Part shown: positions 59,771 through 62,041 of the stretch, in pieces
How the letters are laid out: every line of letters starts with the position of its first letter
Position numbering within the stretch: the first letter of the stretch is position 1
DNA from: Salinirubellus salinus
GTDB taxonomy: Archaea > Halobacteriota > Halobacteria > Halobacteriales > Haloarculaceae
Direction of reading: 5' to 3'
Assembly (NCBI RefSeq): GCF_025231485.1
Contig: NZ_CP104003.1
Span: 1,178,001-1,242,000 of the forward strand
Length of the DNA: 64,000 nucleotides
Made by a program: the position numbers and the translations under genes
Notes under the pieces: model-generated
The model's database searches: none
Told to the model about the DNA's origin: nothing
The model's input: the letters and a program-made list of their open reading frames with translations, nothing else

Positions 59771-60688
59771 ATGCACGAGGGGCACGTCCCCGGCGCGGAG
59801 ATTCCGGGGGGGTTCGACCTGCAAGCGACCGTCGAGAGCGGCCAGACGTACCTCTGGGACCGCGCGGACGACGCGATGTACGAGGACGGACTCGCGTGGG
59901 GTGGTGACCACTGGTACCACACCGTCCTGCCGGCGACGGAGACGGCGACGAACGAACCGGAACTCCTGCGCACTCGCTGGGACGGTGAACGACTCCACTG
60001 GACCTCGACGACGCCCGAGGCGCCCGACCACCTCGAACGGCTCCTCCGACTGGACGACGACCTCGACGCCATCGTCGAGGCGACGCCGAGACTCCCGCTC
60101 CTCGACCGGGCGTTCGAGCGCTACCGCGGGATGCGTCTCGTGCGCGACCCCTCCTTCGGCTCGCTGATATCGTTCATCTGCTCGGCCCAGATGCGGGTCG
60201 AACGCATCCACGGGATGCAGATGCGCCTCGCACGCGAGTACGGGGACCGCGTGACCGTCGACGGCCGGACCTACCACGCCTTCCCGACGCCCGAACAGCT
60301 GGCCGCCGCCACCGAAGCGGACCTCCGCGACCTGTCGCTCGGCTACCGCGCGCCGTACGTGAAACGCACCGCCGAGATGGTGGCCGACGGCGAGGCCCAC
60401 CCGGACGAGGCCATCGGCCTCCCCTACGAGGAGGCCCGCGAGTCCCTCACGCGGTTCGTCGGCGTCGGGGACAAGGTGGCCGACTGCGTCCTGCTGTTCG
60501 CACTCGACTTCCTCGAGGCCGTCCCCCTCGACACGTGGATCCAGACCGCCATCGCGGAGTACTACCCGGACTGCGAGAAGGGGAACTACGCGGCCACCTC
60601 GCGGGCCATCCGGGACCGCTTCGGCGGCGAGTACGCCGGCTACGCGCAGACCTACGTCTTCTTCTACCTCCGGACGGGAGGTGAGTGA
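59771..60688 (+). CDS. OGG1-like 8-oxoguanine DNA glycosylase (HhH-GPD)
   Basis: Base-excision repair enzyme, 305 residues. The HhH-GPD motif is GVGDKVADCVLLFALDFLEAVPLDTWI, with catalytic Lys235 and Asp254, 19 residues apart as in human OGG1. The SFICSAQMRVERIHGMQMRL helix matches the human region SFICSSNNNIARITGM but carries Gln140 and Met141 in place of the two asparagines that contact the estranged cytosine. GYRAPYVKRTA is the conserved positive segment. The N-terminal domain (to about 120) binds the backbone. It should remove 8-oxoguanine, with possible altered preference. The next gene starts two bases after its stop. Confidence 0.92.
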   Translation: MHEGHVPGAEIPGGFDLQATVESGQTYLWDRADDAMYEDGLAWGGDHWYHTVLPATETATNEPELLRTRWDGERLHWTSTTPEAPDHLERLLRLDDDLDAIVEATPRLPLLDRAFERYRGMRLVRDPSFGSLISFICSAQMRVERIHGMQMRLAREYGDRVTVDGRTYHAFPTPEQLAAATEADLRDLSLGYRAPYVKRTAEMVADGEAHPDEAIGLPYEEARESLTRFVGVGDKVADCVLLFALDFLEAVPLDTWIQTAIAEYYPDCEKGNYAATSRAIRDRFGGEYAGYAQTYVFFYLRTGGE

Positions 60689-60690
60689 CG

Positions 60691-60849
60691 ATGGACCGAA
60701 CCGTCCTCGTCGACGGCGGCCTCGCCGCCGCGTTCGTCGCACTGGCCGCCTACTTCTACACGCTGGACGACCCGCTCATCGCCGGGGTCTGGGTGGTCGT
60801 CGCCGCGGCGTTCGCGGCTCGCGCGGCCGGTCTCCTCCCGCAGATGTGA
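60691..60849 (+). CDS. Small two-helix membrane protein
   Basis: A 52-residue protein starting at ATG 60691, two bases after the glycosylase stop. MDRTVLVDGGLAAAFVALAAYFYTLDDPLIAGVWVVVAAAFAARAAGLLPQM has two hydrophobic helices joined by a short acidic turn (TLDDPLI). Codon use is like the neighbours, and the close spacing to the upstream gene supports a real, co-translated gene. Function unknown; two-helix hairpins of this size often occur as accessory subunits. It converges with the RNA-ligase-like gene 12 bp away. Confidence 0.65.
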   Translation: MDRTVLVDGGLAAAFVALAAYFYTLDDPLIAGVWVVVAAAFAARAAGLLPQM

Positions 60850-60861
60850 CCCGAACCAGCG

Positions 60862-61665
60862 TCACCCCTGCCAGCGCCGGACGCGCTCGGCGGCCGCCGA
60901 GCGGAACGCTCGCCGGTCGGCCTCGTCGACCACGGCGGGTGTCTCGCGGAACACCGCGTCCAGCACCCGGTCGAACAGCGCCTCGAACCCCGGGTCGTCA
61001 CCCTGGAGCACCGACGCGACGCGGACGATACGCGCCTCGGTGACGTACTCGGCGACCAGCGTCTCCGGGTCACGCCGGTCCGTCGCCACCGGTGCCTCCG
61101 GGTCGAACTCGGGGTGGTACCGGACGGCGCGGGTCCCGTTCTTGTCCCGGACGAGGATACCGGCCGGCGGGCCGTCGTACCACGCCGATGCGGGCGTGTC
61201 GTACCGGTCCGGGTAGAAGTGTCGCGCGGGGAGTTCTCGCTCGAACGCGTGTGGCGTCGCGAGGCCGAGCCGGTCGTAGACGCGCACCGCGGCGTCCGGC
61301 GAGAGCCACCGGTCCACGGCCGCGTCGTGGACCTCGACGCCCACCACGGCCGGCAGACGCTCCCAGTCGTACGGCAGGTGCCGGTGGACGGTAGCGTCGC
61401 AGACGAAGGTGTAGGCAGTCGGGTCGTCGGCCGCCTCGAATAACGCGCCGAGGTCGAACCCCTCCCGCACCGCTCGGACCGACGCCCGGTAGCGCGGCGG
61501 GGCGTCGCCGTCGAAGCGCCGGTGTCCGTCGGCGAAGACGAGTCGGCCGTCCTCGACGGCGAACCGGAGCGGGTCGGCGTCCAGCAGTTCCACGATCCAG
61601 ACGTTGCCCGTGAACGCCTCGCGGCCCACCTCCTCCAGCGTCGGCAGCGTGGGAACTGGCTCCAC
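60862..61665 (-). CDS. RNA-ligase-like protein with lost catalytic residues
   Basis: A 267-residue protein that aligns by eye with haloarchaeal ATP-dependent RNA ligases. The N-terminus VWIVELLDADPLRFAVEDGRLVFADGHRRF matches their LWxxEKxDGxxxRF motif I, the middle TVHRHLPYDWERLPAVVGVEVHD matches motif III and PASAWYDGPPAGILVRDKNGTRAVRYHPEF matches motifs IV and V. All key residues are changed: the motif I Lys is Leu27, the motif III Gly-Glu is Cys89-Asp90, the motif IV Glu is Ala168 and the motif V Lys is Val180. It therefore should not form a nucleotidyl-lysine. The start is a GTG at 61665, with a TATA-like ggtacat about 27 bp upstream. Divergent neighbour is acylphosphatase. Confidence 0.75.
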   Translation of the reverse strand: MEPVPTLPTLEEVGREAFTGNVWIVELLDADPLRFAVEDGRLVFADGHRRFDGDAPPRYRASVRAVREGFDLGALFEAADDPTAYTFVCDATVHRHLPYDWERLPAVVGVEVHDAAVDRWLSPDAAVRVYDRLGLATPHAFERELPARHFYPDRYDTPASAWYDGPPAGILVRDKNGTRAVRYHPEFDPEAPVATDRRDPETLVAEYVTEARIVRVASVLQGDDPGFEALFDRVLDAVFRETPAVVDEADRRAFRSAAAERVRRWQG

Positions 61666-61750: not shown

Positions 61751-62041
61751 ATGAGCGAGGACGCGAGCGACCGGCGGCGGGTCCACGCCTTCGTCAGCGG
61801 GCGCGTACAGGGTGTCACCTACCGGGCGAGCACGCGTGAGGCGGCCCGCGAACGCGGCGTCGACGGCTGGGTCCGTAACCTCGAGGACGGGCGCGTGGAG
61901 GCCGTGTTCGAGGGCGACCCCGAGGCCGTCGAGTCGATGGTCGCGTGGTGTCACGACGGTCCGAGGCGCGCACGGGTAGCCGACGTGGGGACGGAGGACG
62001 AGCCACCGGAAGGGCTCACCGGGTTCGAGATCAGGTACTGA
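61751..62041 (+). CDS. acyP: Acylphosphatase
   Basis: Small enzyme hydrolysing acyl phosphates such as 1,3-bisphosphoglycerate or acetyl phosphate. The 96-residue protein contains the signature GRVQGVTYRASTREAARERGVDGWVRNLEDGRVEAVFEG. Catalytic Arg25 and Asn43 are present. Length is usual for the family. A TATA-like ggcttttgac lies 25-33 bp upstream of the ATG, so leaderless transcription is likely. The gene stands between the divergent RNA-ligase-like gene and nnr on the same strand, 70 bp away. Confidence 0.96.
   Translation: MSEDASDRRRVHAFVSGRVQGVTYRASTREAARERGVDGWVRNLEDGRVEAVFEGDPEAVESMVAWCHDGPRRARVADVGTEDEPPEGLTGFEIRY

Follow-up and report, generated by a model that had tools for sequence, protein, structure and literature searches.

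Why should a gene of the RNA-ligase family be kept when the residues needed for nucleotidyl transfer have been lost? This question is raised by one gene in a 64,000-nucleotide stretch of the Salinirubellus salinus genome, which was analysed as a whole and is hereafter called the window. The first-pass annotation described the gene product as an RNA-ligase family protein stripped of its nucleotidyl-transfer residues, and held that the gene, with its intact frame and normal codon use, is not simply decaying. Homology, tree, selection and synteny upheld both statements.

The features of the locus are collected in Table 1. The reading frame of the gene is intact and frame 0 is the best-scoring frame, so a frameshift or a wrong frame was ruled out. 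The codon-position GC of the gene (0.79/0.49/0.91) and its codon use resemble those of the neighbours, and no second family copy is present in the 4.38-Mb genome. When searched alone, the window protein gave no match in Pfam, NCBIfam, PADLOC, PHROGs, or the PDB, and the result with PADLOC ruled out membership of a defence system. The structure prediction (AlphaFold) from the window sequence alone had a pLDDT of 39.8, which was too low for the fold to be read.

Table 1. Positions in the window of the pseudo-RNA-ligase gene, its motif codons and its neighbours
Feature	Position	Strand	Evidence or residue counts
Pseudo-RNA-ligase CDS, 267 aa, GTG start (at 61665), TGA stop (at 60862)	60862..61665	(-)	ORF and codon profile; class-wide homologues
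Codon 27 (Leu), motif I nucleophile lysine position	61585..61587	(-)	K 52, non-Lys 101, gap 2 of 155
Codon 47 (Gly), motif Ia-type arginine position	61525..61527	(-)	R: Lys-bearing members 92%, others 23%
Codons 89-90 (Cys-Asp), motif III Gly-Glu position	61396..61401	(-)	GE in ligase-like members
Codon 110 (Val), motif IIIa Phe position	61336..61338	(-)	F: Lys-bearing members 94%, others 14%
Codon 168 (Ala), motif IV Glu position	61162..61164	(-)	Lys-bearing members: E 84%; others: A 89%
Codon 181 (Val), motif V Lys position	61123..61125	(-)	homologue alignments and residue counts
C-terminal domain region, residues about 201-267, conserved T209, R212, R240	60865..61065	(-)	profile alignment to HGTV-1 ligase
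Small ORF of about 52 aa, hydrophobic and probably a membrane protein, separating the pseudo-ligase from the OGG-like gene	60691..60849	(+)	
OGG1-like glycosylase; synteny kept in genera g1, g6, g9, g12	59771..60688	(+)	profile matches and synteny
Neighbour taken from its sequence to be acylphosphatase-like, divergent	61751..62041	(+)	synteny in g9, g12

The relationship to RNA ligases was traced through the homologues of the window protein. Homologues were found in 205 of the 391 genomes of the class (57 of 86 genera) and in 65 of the 146 genomes of the window organism's taxonomic family; the protein family is missing from about half of the haloarchaeal genomes. Haloarcula marina and Natronomonas pharaonis are probably among its carriers. 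Outside the class, weak partial matches were obtained in one genome only among the sampled genomes of the phylum. The motif-intact members matched Pfam RNA_ligase PF09414 (E 2e-21, above Pfam's cut-off) and the PHROG 548 RNA ligase (1.3e-17), and 20 of the 28 sampled family members matched PF09414. A profile made from 15 Lys-bearing members retrieved the window protein at E 1.1e-61. HTUR_RS19290 of Haloterrigena turkmenica is one of the Lys-bearing siblings. Furthermore, a profile made from 75 members with none of the four motif residues aligned over 268 columns to RNA ligases of phages (prob 99.3), and this alignment extended through the C-terminal domain; reversed or column-shuffled versions of the profile gave 0.0-0.2. 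The homology chain and these controls ruled out a chance resemblance. By way of its family members and their profile, the window protein is thus an evolutionary member of PF09414, and the profile alignment agrees with a nucleotidyltransferase fold. Direct PDB sequence searches and viral contig scans provided no lead.

Among the known ligases, HGTV-1 gp217 (Halogranum virus, annotated as an RNA ligase; PF09414/PHROG 548) is collinear with the haloarchaeal family over the whole length, including the C-terminal domain. The motif layout of T4 Rnl2 is alike by eye (W..xEK, motif Ia R, F.GE, FD, EG, and K in the T4 record sequence). The alignment of T4 Rnl2 alone to the 75-member profile was not significant, and the T4 Rnl2 catalytic residues are absent from the window protein. 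The archaeal Rnl3 proteins (Pab1020, TIGR01209/PF18330) are ATP-dependent RNA ligases and share a superfamily with the haloarchaeal proteins. Membership of Rnl3 was ruled out, since the Lys-bearing siblings scored only 12-17 bits against TIGR01209 (cut-off 136.9) and the window protein gave no match. A weak PDB match, 2vug, represents a likeness on the Rnl3 side. The archaeal RNA ligases in PMC4606414 and PMC12153264 are of the Rnl3 type, and the Rnl3-HARP linkage (PMC12153264) belongs to Rnl3, a family other than the haloarchaeal one studied here.

The motif mapping was tested on an alignment of 155 homologues. In this alignment, Leu27, Cys89-Asp90, and Ala168 fell on motifs I, III, and IV, as the first-pass annotation had assigned them. 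The replacement of the motif V Lys by Val also stood, but the homologue alignments placed it at Val181 rather than at position 180. Beyond these residues, the window protein is also without Arg47 (Gly), Phe110 (Val), Gly30 (Ala), and His21 (Asn). The consensus of the Lys-bearing members reads W..xEKVDGAxxRF, FFGEA, AEGVVVRNK, and RAK, and the window protein has WIVELLDADPLRF, FVCDA, PAGILVRDK, and RAV at the same motifs. Judging from the motif layout, we take the Arg47 position to be the motif Ia Arg of T4 Rnl2 and the Phe110 position to be its adenine-stacking motif IIIa Phe.

Of the residues expected of an active ATP-dependent RNA ligase, the motif I Lys is therefore Leu27 in the window protein, the motif III Glu is Asp90, the motif IV Glu is Ala168, and the motif V Lys is Val181; in the adenylate pocket, Gly47 replaces the Arg of motif Ia and Val110 the Phe of motif IIIa. 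The window protein differs in all six from the PF09414/PHROG 548 ligases. Since the nucleophile, the metal/phosphate contacts, and the adenine-stacking position are all lost, adenylation through lysyl-AMP and nucleotide binding by the window protein appear unlikely. Both the motif Ia Arg and the adenine-stacking Phe have been lost and most pocket positions have become hydrophobic, which likewise speaks against the earlier suggestion that nucleotide binding may be kept.

Loss of the motif I Lys recurs across the haloarchaea. It is missing from 100 of the 152 scorable (near-full-length) relatives, and the 101 non-Lys residues at position 27 in the 155 homologues, the window protein included, are Leu (46), Trp (15), Tyr (11), His (9), and others. 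Among the 152 near-full-length rows, all four motif residues are kept in 32 and none in 76, and the rest are intermediate. Some intermediates have kept the Lys together with Ala168, and others have lost the Lys and Glu168 but kept Glu90, which suggests that motif IV was often lost early. As for the number of losses, the 152-row tree, built without the scored motif columns (27, 29, 90, 168, and 181), gave 11 changes of Lys presence, with starred branches forcing 6, or 13 losses if the Lys is never regained (roots placed in the Lys-bearing part). A careful 48-row tree gave 9 changes, at least 4 of them forced, and a single origin of the loss, seen in 0% of its 200 bootstrap trees, was ruled out. 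The trees thus point to about 9-13 independent Lys losses, at least 4-6 of which are forced by well-supported branches. Because the tree root is not established, we infer loss rather than gain of the Lys from the ligase outgroup and from chemistry.

Since the catalytic residues have been lost many times while the gene was kept, a second, non-joining job of the protein is suggested. Our preferred reading, which we hold to be rather probable, is that the window gene encodes a pseudo-RNA-ligase of the PF09414 (Rnl2-like) family that has been retained for a role other than catalysis, probably RNA binding.

The main competitor is a slowly decaying ex-ligase under relaxed selection with no present function, which we consider unlikely. 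The members without the Lys are similar in length to the Lys-bearing ones (279 vs 285 aa). With a simple counting method on independent close pairs, the dN/dS of the no-Lys members had a median of 0.35 (0.18-0.75, 45 pairs), and that of the Lys-bearing members a median of 0.255 (0.08-0.52, 23 pairs); these values describe the groups, the window's own branch having no close relative. The no-Lys members evolve faster (p 0.006), and, judged by these ratios, constraint on them is present but weaker than on the Lys-bearing members. The higher dN/dS would fit decay, as would the patchy presence of the family, the broken copies (G059:C1:78778-79329 with internal stops, the fragment G077:C1:2926960-2927307, and G153:C1:1485278-1486138 in three pieces), and the long branch of the window copy, from which two otherwise near-invariant residues are gone. 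However, every close pair had a dN/dS below 1, so that the no-Lys members as a group combine lost catalytic residues with purifying selection, as expected of pseudoenzymes, and frames are intact in about 100 no-Lys sequences. Moreover, 15 of the 17 positions conserved at >=95% in the no-Lys members are kept in the window protein (hypergeometric P 2e-4) despite its agreement of about 45% with the no-Lys consensus. The locus is also stable across four genera, and the pocket substitutions look patterned rather than random, with Ala at position 168 in 89% and Val/Ile at position 90 in 68% of the no-Lys members.

It is improbable that the protein is a neofunctionalised enzyme using other catalytic residues on the same fold. 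The fold and the polar residues E26, R34, K175, and R240 are kept in nearly all members, as such an enzyme would require, but these four are equally conserved in the Lys-bearing ligases. The residues gained by the no-Lys members (L33, R60, T92, A168, D228, A257, and R261) each reach 67-89%, and none of the gains is a new near-invariant charged residue.

The genomic neighbourhood was compared across the family. The OGG1-like glycosylase that the first-pass annotation placed beside the gene is real (TIGR00588 1.9e-51, under the curated cut-off; PF00730 2.7e-11). In four genera the pseudo-ligase lies near OGG1-like, acyP, DUF555, aIF2-beta, and TFB genes (not all in each), and it lies beside NnrDE/MoaC also in g41, a genus of another family; some of these gene names are putative. 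The OGG adjacency is limited to few genera, and therefore no link to DNA repair follows. Conserved neighbours were genus-level only; with no family-wide partner gene, a partner operon was ruled out.

In some haloarchaea, a family member adjoins the gene of a second ligase-like protein, about 357 aa in length (MKVYPKIPRYDHP..., PF09414 1.4e-5; L040:2364-3437 (+), L050, L064, and L092), which in L040 overlaps the end of the adjacent member. Its full-length copies share 67-78% identity across genera and are patchy, as if mobile. Least probable of all is a non-catalytic subunit or regulator that serves a functional RNA ligase of the same cell. This would accord with the shared substrates suggested by the fold and with the loci L040 and L050, where a Lys-bearing member is followed directly on its downstream side by the second ligase-like gene. 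Pairing with an active Rnl2/Rnl3 sibling is nevertheless unlikely because a search of the organism's own genome for PF09414 and Rnl3 found no other ligase of either kind, nor does it hold a second family copy or the second ligase-like gene; with no intact PF09414 or Rnl3 ligase to act on, the earlier proposal that the protein may regulate RNA repair is only weakly viable.

Under the preferred pseudo-RNA-ligase reading, the family probably descends from an active two-domain ligase that had an additional non-catalytic property, most likely the binding of nicked or structured RNA. The C-terminal domain of Rnl2-type ligases contributes to RNA handling, and RNA would be contacted through this domain and a conserved face of the nucleotidyltransferase domain. 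Sealing may have become dispensable repeatedly in haloarchaea; residues that are mainly non-catalytic, and often hydrophobic, would then have replaced those of the catalytic pocket, and the binding scaffold would have stayed. The fold signature and the C-terminal domain persist, and RNA binding without sealing is therefore favoured; what kind of RNA may be bound, and any regulatory effect, belong to the same conjecture. For the haloarchaeal Rnl2-like proteins in general, we propose, at somewhat less than even chances, that a conserved non-catalytic function (e.g., as a binder of RNA ends or nicked duplexes) outweighs ligation, with parallel conversions through the same pocket substitutions.

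Two gene models of the family, NP_RS13815 (L190:3950-4795) and ABY42_RS17060 (L187:6001-6834), have RefSeq starts downstream of the family's usual start and, as annotated, seem truncated at motif I. ABY42_RS17060, from Haloferax gibbonsii, is a no-Lys gene with Tyr27, Val90, and Ala168. The RefSeq 'RNA ligase family protein' WP_327054131.1 (Halomicrococcus gelatinilyticus, L192:6001-6840) has Ser27, Val90, Ala168, and Ala181. Haloarchaeal annotations of this name thus include very probably non-ligating proteins. Pseudoenzymes are well known among kinases and phosphatases. In the literature that was searched, we found no account of the haloarchaeal family or of any pseudo-RNA-ligase, a silence that is not proof of novelty. 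If true, the reading offered here would provide a natural replicate series of enzyme-to-scaffold transitions: the parallel inactivation of a single-copy ligase across an archaeal class, with the intermediates extant, would open the path from enzyme to scaffold to testing.
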